A stretch of 35,474 bases of DNA from Bacillota bacterium (GTDB lineage: Bacteria; Bacillota; Clostridia; SK-Y3). The DNA is taken from the NCBI GenBank assembly GCA_022360955.1, contig JAKSBV010000489.1, forward strand, positions 1 to 35,474, given 5' to 3'. The notes below the pieces were generated by a model, which saw only the letters and a program-made list of their open reading frames with translations, did no database searches and was not told where the DNA came from. This document shows, piece by piece, positions 23,109 through 29,493 of the stretch (within the stretch, counting starts at the first letter, position 1; every line of letters begins with the position of its first letter). The translations under genes were made by a program, and so were the position numbers.

Positions 23109-23145
23109 GTAAAAACAGGGATTACAGCCCATAGGCCGTAATCCC
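23109..23145 (-). terminator. Terminator of the ABC exporter operon, overlapping its stop codon
   Basis: GGGATTACGGCC and GGCTGTAATCCC (minus strand, 23145-23134 and 23129-23118) pair over 12 bases with one mismatch around TATG. TGTTTTTAC follows on the minus strand. The stem contains the last codons and stop of the downstream ABC gene. Confidence 0.75.
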
Positions 23146-24960
23146 TAACTTCTTTTCTTCTTCTTTCATAAATTGATTGGTGTAAAGTCTGTAGTAATAG
23201 CCCCGCTGTTTGAGCAGTTCATGATGATTGCCTTCTTCAATGACCTTACCCTGGCGGATGACTAAGATACGATCGGCTGCACGGATGGTTGACAGCCTGT
23301 GGGCGATGATAAAGCTGGTTCGTCCTTCAAGTACTTTATGGATGGCGTGTTGAATGATCTGTTCCGTTTCCGTATCCACGGAAGAAGTAGCTTCATCCAG
23401 GATAAAAATGCGGGGATTTGCCAGAATCGCTCTCGCAAAGGAGATAAGCTGCTTTTCACCGGTGGATAGCTTGCCGCCCCCTTCGCCAACCTCCGTGTCA
23501 TATCCGTTTTCCAATTTCTCAATGAATTCATGGGCATTGACCAGTTTTGCAGCAGCGATCATTTCTTCATCGCCGGCTTCCAATCGACCATATCGTATAT
23601 TCTCTTTAATCGTTCCGCTGAACAGATGGGGTGTTTGCAGCACATAGCCTAAGTTGGCATGCAGCCACAGCAGAGATCTTTTCCTATAGTCGATACCGTC
23701 AATTAAAATTTTTCCTTCGGTGGGTTCGTAGAACCGACAGGCTAGATTAACGATTGTGCTTTTGCCCGAACCGGTTTCCCCCACAAGAGCAATGGTTTCC
23801 CCGCGGGAAACGTTCAAATTGAAGCCCTCCAATACCTTTTCACCGTCTTTATAAGCGAAAGATACGTTTTCAAATGCAATATTTCCCTTCATTTCCGGCC
23901 AGGTTTTTTTCCTAGGATGGAATACATCACCGTATTTTGCGATGATTTGTTGAGAGTCCGTAATCTCGGGTTCTGTTTCTATCATTGTAAAAATCCGTTC
24001 TGCAGAGGCCTGTGCCGATTGAAGTTCCGTGAAAATACGCGCCAAATCCCGTATCGGTTCAAAAAATTGAACGGTATAAGAAGTAAAAGCGACCAGGGTA
24101 CCGTATTTGATCGTACCTGCCAATACCCCTTCACCGCCCAGCCATAACGCCAGACCGGTGCCTATGCTTCCCAATATCAACACGATGGGCATGTATAGGG
24201 AAGAAATTGTTGCAGCCTTAACCGACGAAGATTGCATTTGACCGGTAAGCACTTGAAATTCCTGCAGATTTTTTTCTTCTCTCACCAGCACCTTTGTTGC
24301 CTTCGCGCCGGAGAGTCCTTCATTAAACGCTCCTGTAATGAGGGAATTTGTTTTGCGTACATGCCGGAAAGTGTGCAGTATTTTTTTTTGAAATAAAACG
24401 CTTACAATGGCCAGAAACGGAACAACCGACAAAATGATAATTGCCAGCTTCCAATCCAAGTAGAGGACGATGGTGGTGATGGCAAGCATCATGGTAGCCC
24501 CCCAGACACAGTCCACCAGCCCCCAGGACAGTGTATTCCCAAGCTTTCTGATATCCGAGGTCATTCGGCTCATCAGCCATCCGATAGGGGTTTGGTCGTA
24601 ATATGAAAAGGAAAGCTCCTGTAACCGCTGAAAGCCGTCTTTTCGAATGTCATAGCAAATGCCTGTTTCTATTTTTCCCGCCGTATCAACCATGAGCCTG
24701 ATAATGATTGTCTGCAAGCAGATCATAAGGACATAAAGGGCGACAAACCACGCTATGCCTTCCAGTGATTTCGGCACCACGTAATGATCGATGGCGTACT
24801 TGTTCATTAACGGAAATAATGCATCTATCGTACCGATACCAATCATAAACATACCCAAAGTGATCAGCGATTTCTTATAGGGTTTTGCATAACGCAGCAA
24901 TTTCCGCCACAGCCCTATGTCGAACCGGTTCGTATACGTTTGTTCTTGAAATGTATTCAT
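23122..24960 (-). CDS. Heterodimeric ABC exporter subunit (canonical Walker B, altered signature)
   Basis: A 612-residue half-transporter with an N-terminal six-helix export domain (about residues 30-330) and a C-terminal ATPase domain. Walker A is GETGSGKST with Lys400; Walker B ends ILDEATSS with catalytic Glu523; the H-loop is FIIAHRLST. The signature motif is LSTGEKQ (498-502 region) instead of LSGGQ. The partner gene upstream has a normal signature but Asp in place of the catalytic Glu. Together they would form one working and one degenerate ATP site, the hallmark of heterodimeric multidrug-type exporters such as BmrCD and TM287/288. It starts 18 bases after the partner and has AAGGAGG upstream. 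Export of drugs or peptides is inferred; the substrate is unknown. Confidence 0.92.
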   Translation of the reverse strand: MNTFQEQTYTNRFDIGLWRKLLRYAKPYKKSLITLGMFMIGIGTIDALFPLMNKYAIDHYVVPKSLEGIAWFVALYVLMICLQTIIIRLMVDTAGKIETGICYDIRKDGFQRLQELSFSYYDQTPIGWLMSRMTSDIRKLGNTLSWGLVDCVWGATMMLAITTIVLYLDWKLAIIILSVVPFLAIVSVLFQKKILHTFRHVRKTNSLITGAFNEGLSGAKATKVLVREEKNLQEFQVLTGQMQSSSVKAATISSLYMPIVLILGSIGTGLALWLGGEGVLAGTIKYGTLVAFTSYTVQFFEPIRDLARIFTELQSAQASAERIFTMIETEPEITDSQQIIAKYGDVFHPRKKTWPEMKGNIAFENVSFAYKDGEKVLEGFNLNVSRGETIALVGETGSGKSTIVNLACRFYEPTEGKILIDGIDYRKRSLLWLHANLGYVLQTPHLFSGTIKENIRYGRLEAGDEEMIAAAKLVNAHEFIEKLENGYDTEVGEGGGKLSTGEKQLISFARAILANPRIFILDEATSSVDTETEQIIQHAIHKVLEGRTSFIIAHRLSTIRAADRILVIRQGKVIEEGNHHELLKQRGYYYRLYTNQFMKEEEKKLGITAYGL

Positions 24961-24978: not shown

Positions 24979-26769
24979 TTATGCCAATTCTTTCTCCAAA
25001 CTATTTTGGAGTGCCCAAATACGCTGGTATAGTCCCATTTGGCGGATTAATTCATCATGGGTCCCGGACTGGACGATTTTTCCTTCATCCAGTACAAGAA
25101 TATGATCCGCTTCCGATACGGTTGTGATACGATGTGAAATAATAAAGGTGGTAACGTGTTGGCTTCTTTCCTTTAGTGCTTTTCGTATCGCCAGATCCGT
25201 TTCCAGATCGACCGCACTTAATGAATCGTCGAAAATGAGAATAGGACAATTGTTTATAATGGTGCGGGCAATGGCAATTCTTTGTTTTTGCCCTCCCGAA
25301 AGGGTTACACCTCTTTCACCCACAAGGGTTTCGTAGCCCTTTTCAAAATCAAGGATGGCGTCGTGCATAAAGGCTATGCGTGCAGCTTCAAATATTTCGG
25401 CTTCTTTCGCCTCCAATTTTGACAATCTGATATTTTCCTTAATCGTTTTTGAGAACAAGAAGGGTTCCTGCAGTACGATACCCACATTTTTTCGGAGCCA
25501 CTTCTTATTAAATTTTTTTAATTCAACGCCGTCTATGAGAATGGACCCCTTTTGATAATCATACAACCGGACCAAAAGATGTACGAGGGAAGTCTTACCG
25601 CAGCCTGTGGGTCCTAAAATAGCAATTGTCTGGCCCCGCTTTACCTTAAAAGAAATATTTCTCAAAACGGACTTTCCTGATTCGTAGGCAAAGGATACAT
25701 TTCTAAAGGTGACTTCACCTTTAATCATGGGTTTATATTCGTTTTGCTCTGCCGTTTCGACGGGTTGATTCAAAATTTCTTCTATACGATCCAGCGCCAC
25801 AAAGGTTTTGCCCATATCGGTCAGTATTTGTCCCAGCTGCCTTATAGGCCAGAGGAGCATTCGGGCATAAGAGGTAAATACCACTAGCGTACCTAAACTG
25901 ATTCTGCCCTTTGAGGCCCAGTAGACACCGAGTATGAGGACAACACCCGATTGTGCCATGCAAAGAAAATCGGAAATTGACCAATACCAGGACATTAAAC
26001 GTATCAAGCGATATACGCTGTCCCTATGGGTGCTGTTTTTGATATCGAATTTATCTATTTCATAGCGCTGTCTTCCGAAAGCACGAACCACACGGACCCC
26101 GGTCATGTTTTCCTGCAATACCGTAGACATAATCGCTTCTGCTTCGTCGACCTTACGAAAGGTTTTCTTTACAATAATGAAGAACCAGAAGGCAAAGCCG
26201 AATATGACCGGAACGGCAGCCATACACACAAACGTCATGGACAGATCCAGTGAAATCATGATATTTAATGCGAAAACCAGCATAAAAATCGCGCGTCCTA
26301 TTTCTATAAATTGTGTGGCTAAGAAAACGCGAATGGTGTCCACATCGGAGGTGCAGCGCTGTATGAGATCACCGGTTTTTGCCTTTACATGAGCGTCGTA
26401 GTGCAAGTGCTGCAAGTGATCATAAAGCTGTTCCCGCATATTTTTAGCCGTAGCTTCCGCCGCCATAGCGGACCATCTGCCCTTTAGGTATAAAAACAGT
26501 CCTCTCATCATTGTGAAGATGACAATGAGCAGACCACAGAGCCATAGTTTTTGTGCCAGCATACTTTTACCGCCCAGGCTGTGTATGATGGGCCGGAGCT
26601 GTTCGGGAATATCCAGCGGATGATTGCCGATGATGGAATCAATAGTTACACGAAGAACCAGGGGGGTAATGACGGCAAACATTATGGCCAGGCCTACTGC
26701 GACGATGCCCCCGATATAAATGAGCTTGTTCCCCTTCATAAAATGTAAAAGCAATCGGATTTTTTGCAT
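24979..26769 (-). CDS. Heterodimeric ABC exporter subunit (degenerate Walker B)
   Basis: A 596-residue half-transporter and first gene of the pair. The export domain spans roughly residues 15-310. In the ATPase domain, Walker A is GPTGCGKTS with Lys392, the signature is normal (TLSGGQKQR), the H-loop is FIISHRITT, but Walker B reads LIFDDSLSAVD with Asp514-Asp515, so the catalytic Glu is replaced by Asp. Its Walker A/B would pair with the altered signature of the partner to form the degenerate site. GAGGAGG lies nine bases before the ATG. Upstream on the same strand are a promoter, a leader peptide and two terminator-like hairpins, so expression is probably controlled by attenuation, as known for the bmrCD operon of Bacillus subtilis. 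Confidence 0.92.
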   Translation of the reverse strand: MQKIRLLLHFMKGNKLIYIGGIVAVGLAIMFAVITPLVLRVTIDSIIGNHPLDIPEQLRPIIHSLGGKSMLAQKLWLCGLLIVIFTMMRGLFLYLKGRWSAMAAEATAKNMREQLYDHLQHLHYDAHVKAKTGDLIQRCTSDVDTIRVFLATQFIEIGRAIFMLVFALNIMISLDLSMTFVCMAAVPVIFGFAFWFFIIVKKTFRKVDEAEAIMSTVLQENMTGVRVVRAFGRQRYEIDKFDIKNSTHRDSVYRLIRLMSWYWSISDFLCMAQSGVVLILGVYWASKGRISLGTLVVFTSYARMLLWPIRQLGQILTDMGKTFVALDRIEEILNQPVETAEQNEYKPMIKGEVTFRNVSFAYESGKSVLRNISFKVKRGQTIAILGPTGCGKTSLVHLLVRLYDYQKGSILIDGVELKKFNKKWLRKNVGIVLQEPFLFSKTIKENIRLSKLEAKEAEIFEAARIAFMHDAILDFEKGYETLVGERGVTLSGGQKQRIAIARTIINNCPILIFDDSLSAVDLETDLAIRKALKERSQHVTTFIISHRITTVSEADHILVLDEGKIVQSGTHDELIRQMGLYQRIWALQNSLEKELA

Positions 26770-26833
26770 ACGGATCTACCTCCTCTAATAGGGAATGAAT
26801 ATCTTAACCTGTGCCTCATGGGATTTAAACAGA

Positions 26834-26865
26834 ATAAAAAACATAGGTGGATTGGCCTATGGTTT
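26834..26865 (-). terminator. Leader terminator-like hairpin 2 of the ABC operon
   Basis: On the minus strand AAACCATAGG pairs with CCTATGTTTT (one mismatch) around CCAATCCA, followed by TTTTTTATT. It lies 65 bases before the ABC start codon. Its 5' arm (plus 26855-26865) can instead pair over 11 perfect bases with the 3' arm of hairpin 1. Confidence 0.6.
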
Positions 26866-26930
26866 AACAAAAACATACAATACATGGTTTTACAGCGGGA
26901 AAAAACATATGTAAGATTTGCTTTCCAAAA

Positions 26931-26967
26931 ACAAAAAACCATAGGCAACGATACACTACCTATGATC
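26931..26967 (-). terminator. Leader terminator-like hairpin 1 of the ABC operon
   Basis: On the minus strand CATAGGTAGTG pairs with CGTTGCCTATG around TAT, using several G-U pairs, followed by GTTTTTTGTTTTT. It lies 41 bases after the leader-peptide stop. Its 3' arm GCCTATGGTTT is the perfect complement of the 5' arm of hairpin 2 (AAACCATAGGC), so forming that pairing would break both terminators. Confidence 0.65.
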
Positions 26968-27007
26968 CCATTATTCCGACTTGAATATTTTCAAGGTTAT
27001 ATACCCG

Positions 27008-27091
27008 TCAATTTTTCAAGGCACAGGCCGTGCATGTATACTTACTATGCAGTTGAGTTATATTGTGTAAAAATTTCCCTAAATTAATCAT
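27008..27091 (-). CDS. Putative 27-residue leader peptide of the ABC exporter operon
   Basis: An ATG at 27091-27089 follows AAAGGAGG by about ten bases, a better ribosome-binding site than most genes here have. The frame starts MINLGKFLHN, ends CTACALKN and stops at TGA 27010-27008. A stem TGCAT / ATGCA with an inner GTA / TAC lies inside its codons. It sits between a good promoter and two terminator-like hairpins ahead of the ABC genes, which is how regulatory leader peptides such as BmrB are placed. No known peptide family is recognised. Its role as a ribosome-stalling sensor is inferred from layout only. Confidence 0.6.
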   Translation of the reverse strand: MINLGKFLHNITQLHSKYTCTACALKN

Positions 27092-27135
27092 TTACACGAC
27101 CTCCTTTACGTTAAATTTGATTTGTTACCTGCACT

Positions 27136-27164
27136 ATTATATGCACAAACGATCAAAAAATCAA
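27136..27164 (-). promoter_or_regulatory. Promoter of the leader peptide and ABC exporter operon
   Basis: On the minus strand TTGATT (27164-27159) and TATAAT (27141-27136, exact) are separated by 17 bases. Transcription would begin near 27129, about 38 bases before the leader ATG and 360 bases before the first ABC gene. Confidence 0.7.
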
Positions 27165-27310
27165 ATGTTTTTTTGAATTGTAATATATTTGTAATATTCA
27201 TGCTTTGTTTCAAAACCGTAAAAAGCCTGTAATTAACCGGTGGTGAAACAATTTTTATATATAGATCATAAGCAGTAAAGTTGGCAATATAATCGTACTC
27301 CGGCAACGGG

Positions 27311-27392
27311 TGTTCCAAGGCTAAAAAGTAGTTGAGGGCTGAGAGATGAGGGTTGAGAATGAACCGCTCACCGCTCATAACACCTTGTTGCA
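27311..27392 (+). repeat. Family B repeat, copy 2
   Basis: The block from GTTCCAAGGCTAAAAAGTAG through GTTGAGGGCTGAGAGATGAG to CACCTTGTTGC matches 14453-14536. Just upstream (27258-27290) TATAGATCATAAGCAGTAAA and GTTGGCAATA look like a decayed family A copy. No gene is seen between the ABC promoter and the next coding sequence. Confidence 0.7.
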
Positions 27393-27499: not shown

Positions 27500-28789
27500 G
27501 TGGTTTTTTTGATCATTCATGTTGTCAGACCGGGAGAGAGCTTATATACGATTGGACAATTATATGGTGTTCCACCTGCAAAAATAGCTTCAGATAATGA
27601 ACTACCCGACCCAAATCAGCTTGTGGTAGGACAAACATTAGTTATCTTGGAGGGGATGCGTATGCATAGGGTAGCTCCGGGACAATCGCTGTACGATATT
27701 GCCAGGGATTACGGTGTGACGGTAAATGATATCCTGGCAGTCAATCCCCAGATTACAGATCCTGCCCGTATTAGCCCCGGACAAATCATTACTATTCCGC
27801 CCCGCACGAGAAAGCTGGGCACAATAGAAGTAAACGCATATGCGTTTCCCACTATTTCAATGGATGTTTTAAAGAAAACGCTTCCCTATTTAACTTATCT
27901 GAGTATCTTTAGTTACGAGGTAAGGCCTGACGGCAGCTTAAGTACAGTGGATGACGAGCCGTTGATTCAAGCAGCCAGAGAAGCAAATGTGGCACCGTTA
28001 ATGGTAATTACCAATATTGAGGAAGGGGGAAGCTTTGACAGTGACCTGGTCAGCACTATTTTAAATGATGAGCAGGTACAGGAAACGTTGATAAATAATG
28101 TGATCGAGACCTTAGAGGCCAAAAATTATTATGGCTTGGATATTGATTTTGAGTTTATTTATCCGGAAGACAGAGAAAAATATAACGACTTTTTGAGAAA
28201 GGTAGTAGAGAGGCTGGAGCCTTTAGGCTATAAAGTGACCACAGCCGTAGCGCCTAAAACTTCTGCCGATCAGCCGGGTCTGCTTTATGAGGCGCACGAC
28301 TATCCCGTTCACGGCGCATTGGCAGACCACGTTATACCGATGACCTATGAATGGGGATATACTTATGGACCGCCGCTGGCTGTTGCGCCCATCAATCAGG
28401 TAAGACAGGTGTTGGATTATGCGGTAACGGCTATACCCCGGCAAAAGATATTGATGGGTATACCGAATTATGGTTATGATTGGACACTGCCCTATGTCAG
28501 CGGAACGGCAGCAAGGACGGTCACCAATACGGGAGCTGTCGATCTTGCAGGCAGAGTAAGGGCCGCAATACAATATGATAACGCGTCGCAGGCGCCGTAT
28601 TTCAACTATTATGATGCCGAAGGCAAGGAACATGTGGTTTGGTTTGAAGATGCACGAAGTATTGACACAAAATTAAGAACCGCCAACCAGTATGGCCTTG
28701 GCGGCGTAAGCTATTGGACCATTAACAGTTATTTCCCGCAAAATTGGCTGGTCCTGCAGTCACTGTTTGATGTTGAGAAGGTCATTTGA
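27500..28789 (+). CDS. LysM-GH18 spore-cortex/peptidoglycan hydrolase (SleL/YaaH-like)
   Basis: A 429-residue protein with two LysM peptidoglycan-binding repeats (about residues 5-50 and 55-98; IHVVRPGESLYTIGQLYG and MHRVAPGQSLYDIARDYG) and a glycoside-hydrolase family 18 domain (about 105-425). The catalytic motif is YYGLDIDFEFI with Glu218 as the acid. There is no signal peptide, as in SleL/YaaH enzymes that cleave cortical fragments during spore germination. GTG 27500 is close to AAAGG; TTG 27509 would give MIIHVVRPGES, more like family N-termini, and may be the true start. It is a single gene, marking the organism as a likely spore former. Confidence 0.9.
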   Translation: MVFLIIHVVRPGESLYTIGQLYGVPPAKIASDNELPDPNQLVVGQTLVILEGMRMHRVAPGQSLYDIARDYGVTVNDILAVNPQITDPARISPGQIITIPPRTRKLGTIEVNAYAFPTISMDVLKKTLPYLTYLSIFSYEVRPDGSLSTVDDEPLIQAAREANVAPLMVITNIEEGGSFDSDLVSTILNDEQVQETLINNVIETLEAKNYYGLDIDFEFIYPEDREKYNDFLRKVVERLEPLGYKVTTAVAPKTSADQPGLLYEAHDYPVHGALADHVIPMTYEWGYTYGPPLAVAPINQVRQVLDYAVTAIPRQKILMGIPNYGYDWTLPYVSGTAARTVTNTGAVDLAGRVRAAIQYDNASQAPYFNYYDAEGKEHVVWFEDARSIDTKLRTANQYGLGGVSYWTINSYFPQNWLVLQSLFDVEKVI

Positions 28790-28967: not shown

Positions 28968-29026
28968 TGACCTTATGTGCCAGAGGTCGGAGATCAGAGG
29001 GCGGAAGTCGGAATATAACCAAACAG
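28968..29026. repeat. Family C repeat, copy near 29.0 kb
   Basis: ACCTTATGTGCCAGAGGTCG, then GAGATCAGAGGGCGGAAGTC and GGAATATAACC. The same order of blocks appears at 33199-33250. It directly precedes an inverted family B copy. Confidence 0.65.
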
Positions 29027-29035
29027 GGGCCAAAG

Positions 29036-29130
29036 TAATGAGCGACAAGCGTATCGTAAATGGTGGATGGTCCATTCTCAACCCTCATCTCTCAGCCCTC
29101 AACTACTTTTTAGTCTTGGAATATCAGTTG
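29036..29130 (-). repeat. Family B repeat, copy 3 (inverted)
   Basis: CATTCTCAACCCTCATCTCT, then CAGCCCTCAACTACTTTTTA and GTCTTGGAATA, is the reverse complement of the 27311 copy. It is part of a roughly 950-bp gap (28790-29744) that holds repeats but no supported gene. Confidence 0.7.
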
Positions 29131-29342
29131 TTGGAATAATTTTCTTCACCCATAATTTATACAGCCCTCACTTGTAGTAGAACTGGCATAATGGGTTATA
29201 ATATGGTATATTTAATGCTAAGAGATTGAGTGTTGAAGTTGAAAATGTTGTGTGGGGAATGGATGTATAAATTTGAGCAGAAGAAAATGATTCCAGCAAC
29301 TATATATAATACGATAAATAAATGACATACCCATTCAGGAAA

Positions 29343-29493
29343 GTGACATGGGGACAGACCCCCAGACACACTTAAACCGTGTGGGTCAAACGGGAAGTCG
29401 GAGGTGTGATATCAGAAGTCTGACTAAAAAATTCTTTAGCTATATTTATAAAATTCAGATTTCCGACTTCCGACCTCAGATTTCCGTATGTCA
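29343..29493. repeat. Family C composite element with inverted ends
   Basis: Bounded by GTGACAT (29343-29349) and ATGTCAC (29487-29493). Inside, GGGAAGTCGGAGGTGTGATA on the left opposes TTTCCGACTTCCGACCTCAG on the right. A GGGGACAGACCCCC palindrome-like start is included. The unit of about 150 bases can fold as a large imperfect hairpin and has no coding capacity. Confidence 0.6.

Follow-up and report, generated by a model that had tools for sequence, protein, structure and literature searches.

How transcription of a pair of ABC exporter genes might be controlled by the RNA in front of them is the question raised by this locus. The window, meaning the whole 35,474-nucleotide stretch of Bacillota DNA that was analysed, carries on its minus strand a promoter, a leader Shine-Dalgarno (SD) sequence, a 27-codon frame encoding MINLGKFLHNITQLHSKYTCTACALKN, two terminators (T1 and T2) and the two exporter genes, in this order (Table 1). 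Promoter, SD, small frame, both terminators and a perfect 11-base complementarity between the 3' arm of T1 (segment D) and the 5' arm of T2 (segment C') had been described in an earlier reading of the sequence alone, and all were recovered where that reading had placed them. It had overlooked the core of the element, an antiterminator formed by segments B and C and an anti-antiterminator formed by segments A and B, which uses the leader SD. T1 begins about 40 nt past the leader stop, and T1 and T2 are the only terminator-like sites in 801 bases, compared with an expectation of 0.5 from shuffled sequences. Solved sequence relatives of the exporter halves include TmrAB-like 6raf chains, TM_0288, YheI and YheH; for the second half, the nearest solved single-chain relatives include chain A of 6raf (annotated as a multidrug ABC transporter), TM_0288 and YheH. 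YheI/YheH (BmrC/BmrD) are thus among the relatives, yet other matches score better. Next to the element, a LysM/SafA-like gene (27500-28789) is flanked by a 77-nt inverted repeat (27296-27372 and 29062-29138, 86% complementary), and a second inverted-repeat pair of 26 nt lies at 28988-29013 and 29461-29486; these repeats are possibly remnants of a dispersed repeat.

Table 1. Positions of the leader features and exporter genes in the window, in the order of transcription
Feature	Position	Strand	Remarks
-35 hexamer TTGATT	27159..27164	-	best promoter-like site of the region
-10 hexamer TATAAT	27136..27141	-	17-nt spacer from the -35 hexamer
Leader SD AAAGGAGG	27100..27107	-	strong SD, same place in relatives
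Segment A AGGTCGTG	27095..27102	-	SD and following bases; 5' arm of anti-antiterminator A:B
Leader ORF	27008..27091	-	ATG at 27091; 27 codons and stop (27010-27008)
Segment B CACGGCCTGTG	27022..27032	-	last third of leader ORF; partner A or C
Terminator T1 (C:D)	26935..26969	-	hairpin and T-run; covaries
Segment C CATAGGTAGTG	26954..26964	-	5' arm of T1; SD-region mimic; pairs with B in 10/11 bases
Segment D GCCTATGGTTT	26936..26946	-	3' arm of T1; partner C or C'
Segment C' AAACCATAGGC	26855..26865	-	5' arm of T2; covaries with D
Terminator T2 (C':D')	26842..26861	-	T-run; weak in the window; covaries in relatives
First exporter half	24979..26769	-	596 aa; Pfam ABC_membrane and ABC_tran; orthologues 50-64% identity
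Second exporter half	23122..24960	-	612 aa; Pfam ABC_membrane and ABC_tran

Conserved leader codons and covarying arms had both been named as things to look for in related genomes. Used as a protein query against 118 related genomes, the leader peptide found no clear relative (best E 0.07), and conservation was therefore sought via the exporter instead. Upstream regions of exporter orthologues (50-64% identity) from the same class were compared and revealed a recurrent layout consisting of AAAGGAGGTCGTG, a start codon, 20-45 codons, one or two terminators and the exporter. Some exporter orthologues are without the element (e.g. L014-L016, L025, L026), and one (L019) is preceded by tandem CCATAGGG / CCATAGGT terminators with no recognisable leader frame. 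A motif search that was independent of the exporter provided a second retrieval route and yielded further copies ahead of Schlafen-AlbA_2 ATPase operons, a GNAT-like gene and a pair of GyrI-like and LD-carboxypeptidase genes. Copies in other classes of the phylum lie ahead of MFS transporters and of a further exporter of this type (L140, L142, L147). Matches to the SD motif before long genes (e.g. L131, L144) were set aside as chance. In the genome of the window itself, the motif count gave one copy. A scan of genome contigs returned distant exporters only. The resulting comparison set comprised the window element and 53 others. Of 51 elements, 39 have a promoter-like site at most 75 nt from the leader SD, against 4.7 in shuffled sequences. 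Neither the window nor 18 loci gave a gathering-level match in Rfam, and a relaxed search produced chance-level matches only. Conservation concerns the arrangement and the pairings and not the sequence of the leader peptide. Two variants were observed among the relatives. At the Schlafen-AlbA_2 loci L056, L057, L058 and L062 (also L091-L093 and L096), the attenuator stands before a small ORF and a Schlafen-AlbA_2 / RecG-C-terminal-like protein, and the T1/T2 arms GTCACGGG/GTCATGGG replace CCATAGG. Members of the class L076-L082 have a single terminator, a leader with PP or RPP close to its end and a segment B that overlaps the GGAGG complement.

The pairing network links A with B, B with C, C with D, D with C' and C' with D'. 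Covariation was assessed by comparing the duplex energy of each element's own partners with that obtained after partners had been exchanged between elements; the segments were fixed beforehand from ORF and hairpin boundaries in order to avoid picking the best match, with several hairpin or terminator boundaries and six leader starts set by hand. Own partners were better than exchanged ones for A:B (n=54), B:C (n=53), C:D (n=53), D:C' (n=38) and C':D' (n=38), each with 0/20000 permutations. The same five helices stood out in a reduced set of 41 elements with less than 80% similarity, and own partners were also better than composition-shuffled ones. The clean controls A:D and A:C had no own-partner advantage in the exchange test. 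The control B:D gave a small excess (15/20000 in all elements, 1000/20000 in the reduced set), which indicates the size of the composition effect. Segment A is invariant in motif-found copies by selection, and the informative A/B variants come from the exporter-found copies; co-variant pairs are AGGTCGTG/CACGACCT, AGGCCATG/TATGGCCT, AGGTTGCG/CGCAACCT, GGCTGCGA/TCGCAGCC and GGGCATAC/GTATGCCT. In the window, C imitates the SD region (AGGTCGTG versus AGGTAGTG), and the calculated duplex energies are -17.1 kcal/mol for A:B and -18.3 kcal/mol for B:C. Judged by sequence comparison, the element is a conserved leader-peptide transcription attenuator with a mutually exclusive antiterminator (B:C) and anti-antiterminator (A:B). 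Conservation of exclusive RNA pairings and a leader frame before the exporter had been made the point on which the sequence-only reading would stand or fall, and it is present in the related loci. A pairing of the window's B with AGGCACAGG before the exporter SD (26816-26808, -21.4 kcal/mol) was also considered and dropped because it lacks conservation; in relatives, own partners gave -15.8 and other partners -15.7.

The covariation of D:C' bears on two simpler explanations. According to the first, which is the version of the sequence-only reading, D:C' alone is the antiterminator and removes both terminators. The perfect 11-base match, its covariation and its presence in full-length equilibrium folds of the window all speak for such a role. 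However, C' is made about 70 nt past the T-run of T1 and is still absent when T1 termination is decided, so D:C' cannot prevent it, whereas B:C is able to act at T1 and covaries as strongly. This explanation is very unlikely. The second explanation sees plain tandem terminators with a shared stem, providing back-up termination or stemming from a duplicated hairpin, in which D:C' has no separate function. CCATAGG/CCTATGG is indeed often common to T1 and T2, and C:D' is likewise better within elements than exchanged. As this excess is expected from stem sharing, the D:C' result taken alone is no proof of function. A single terminator is kept in some relatives (L076-L082, L146), and most relatives favour the T2 stem at equilibrium. 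Yet both A:B and B:C are left unexplained by plain tandem terminators, and C' of the window fits D far better than D' (-17.3 kcal/mol for D:C' versus -7.9 kcal/mol for the T2 stem). This explanation is considered unlikely. D:C' is best read as a second step that would disarm T2 only after B:C has let the polymerase pass T1.

If B is the segment over which A and C compete, the leader frame that contains it has to be accounted for. In 52 of 53 elements, no stop codon interrupts the frame of the leader start codon through B, compared with 5 and 6 elements for the +1 and +2 frames, and a median of 13 nt separates the end of B from the stop; for these reasons the reading-frame pattern suggests that the leader is very probably translated. 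The B core was recognisable in 35 leaders, and all three frames are used to read it (by 23, 7 and 5 leaders), which points to a constraint on the RNA and not on an arrest peptide. A switch in which the ribosome stalls at an [A/L/T]-R-P motif near the leader end would fit the 23/35 leaders that share one frame and spell R-P at this place. Against it, the other 12, including the window (T-C-T-A-C), use another frame, and, with three frames in use, no peptide is conserved where stalling would occur. A ribosome halted at B would moreover cover this segment and favour termination. Such an arrest-peptide switch is highly improbable. Starvation for an amino acid, as in attenuators of the trp or his leader type, shares the overall logic and the presence of a leader peptide. 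The leaders, however, contain no run or common rare amino acid; Ile, which is common in AT-rich frames, is the only residue that occurs in all of them, and the downstream genes are non-biosynthetic. Attenuation by starvation is the least credible of the explanations considered, and this half of the earlier suggestion of antibiotic- or starvation-induced read-through is disfavoured. The antibiotic half is favoured by the kinds of downstream genes and by early Arg/Lys residues and leaders with a [KR]-X-R motif. Arg is found 31 times at leader residues 2-6, compared with 15 expected, and 16 of 44 leaders have [KR]-X-R among their first 12 residues, compared with 3.3 expected. Arg/Lys-X-Arg/Lys is described in PMC8298421 as the principal motif for stalling by ketolides, and MRLR forms the end of the mef(E) leader (PMC4335068). 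The [KR]-X-R enrichment serves as a lead only, since the test was devised after the peptides had been inspected and the window leader (MINLGKF...) is without the motif. We infer that the inducer is an antibiotic or another slowing of early elongation. A general slowing is the safer reading than ketolide-type stalling at a motif; stalling early in the leader is what the model described below requires.

The switching logic was computed in folding models. The whole-leader fold of the window has no unusual stability (z = -1.13), and in equilibrium folds T1 is usually predicted to beat B:C even with A covered, so that the switch must be kinetic, i.e. depend on folding during transcription. Attenuators usually depend on co-transcriptional folding. 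Because equilibrium folding of the whole leader is not decisive, transcript-length-limited folding was adopted. With the RNA extended to the T1 loop only, a start-bound ribosome was predicted to give B:C in 51 of 53 elements and a stop-bound ribosome in 3 of 53, the latter result following partly from the assumed ribosome footprint. Without a ribosome, A:B is predicted to compete with B:C; B:C is the predicted outcome for the window, where the ribosome-free OFF state would therefore be weak. When C was held by B, D:C' was predicted to form in 38/38 elements by the time C' had emerged. Once D' is present, the T2 stem is calculated to beat D:C' at equilibrium in 29/38 relatives, while the window keeps D:C'; coupling in most relatives would thus have to be kinetic.

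Taken as a whole, the element is probably a transcription attenuator that is gated by the ribosome and has two coupled terminators. During normal translation, the ribosome would reach the leader stop and mask B while T1 emerges, C:D would form and transcription would end. Without a ribosome, the leader SD would tend to hold B in A:B, likewise favouring T1. A ribosome held near the leader start would cover A and leave B free to capture the emerging C, thereby blocking T1; the freed D could then capture C', so that T2 is disarmed and the exporter genes are transcribed. The OFF state would consist of A:B, C:D and C':D', and the ON state of B:C followed by D:C'. If polymerase leaked past an intact T1, D would stay in T1 and T2 could still terminate as a fail-safe. 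The most likely trigger is disturbed protein synthesis, e.g. by antibiotics, upon which the exporter would be made. Beyond the window, it is tentatively proposed that the elements may form an undescribed attenuator family, common to several kinds of stress and resistance genes in at least two classes of one phylum. T2 would be disarmed only if T1 is lost by genuine antitermination, because only then could the released D capture C'. If true, this would be a widespread RNA switch family outside the model Bacilli that responds to antibiotics or translation stress. The motif AAAGGAGGTCGTG together with its complement in a small frame provides a recognition mark that could help to find further genes under such control. 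Genes downstream of the elements include exporters, MFS transporters and other possible resistance genes, and candidates for co-regulation include uncharacterised Schlafen-AlbA_2 operons. Coupling two terminators would be a simple route to a tight RNA switch, in which leaky read-through is filtered out.

Several known leader attenuators can be compared with this element, in which an SD-led short ORF lies between promoter and terminator, an intrinsic terminator precedes the structural gene and an antiterminator/anti-antiterminator pair is conserved, as judged by the covariation of A:B and B:C. In B. subtilis, antibiotics induce read-through into the genes of a heterodimeric multidrug ABC exporter only if the bmrB leader ORF is translated; both the alternative stems and the one terminator reported there are located within the bmrB coding region, nt 60-162 (PMC4191407). 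The comparison with bmrCD drawn by the sequence-only reading is apt in kind, two ABC exporter genes being downstream here as well. It does not extend to a terminator inside the leader coding region; in the window, the leader SD itself supplies an arm of the anti-antiterminator, and the two coupled terminators come after the ORF. B. subtilis vmlR (PMC9226507) and clostridial cplR (PMC10201436) have a uORF, an anti-antiterminator, an antiterminator and an intrinsic terminator, and stalling on their tripeptide uORFs (MIN and MR[I/M]) frees the antiterminator. In vmlR, the uORF SD is single-stranded before the anti-antiterminator stem and a further structure sequesters the SD of the main gene (PMC9226507). 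The same parts are present here and the stalling principle would be the same, whereas the leader has 27 codons. For erm(K) of Bacillus licheniformis, a leader-peptide transcription attenuator is reported in which two Rho-independent terminators lie side by side (as cited in PMC4335068); two terminators are common to both, but the gene controlled by the erm(K) leader encodes a methylase. Transcription attenuation of the antibiotic efflux genes mef(E)/mel involves the leader peptide MTASMRLR and one terminator (PMC4335068), and differs further in that the anti-attenuator arm lies after the leader ORF and not inside it. In the literature found, with most subscription papers outside the search, this motif family, an anti-antiterminator built from an SD and tandem terminators linked through their arms were undescribed. 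The class of mechanism is known from bmrB, vmlR and erm(K), while the wiring and the family appear to be new.
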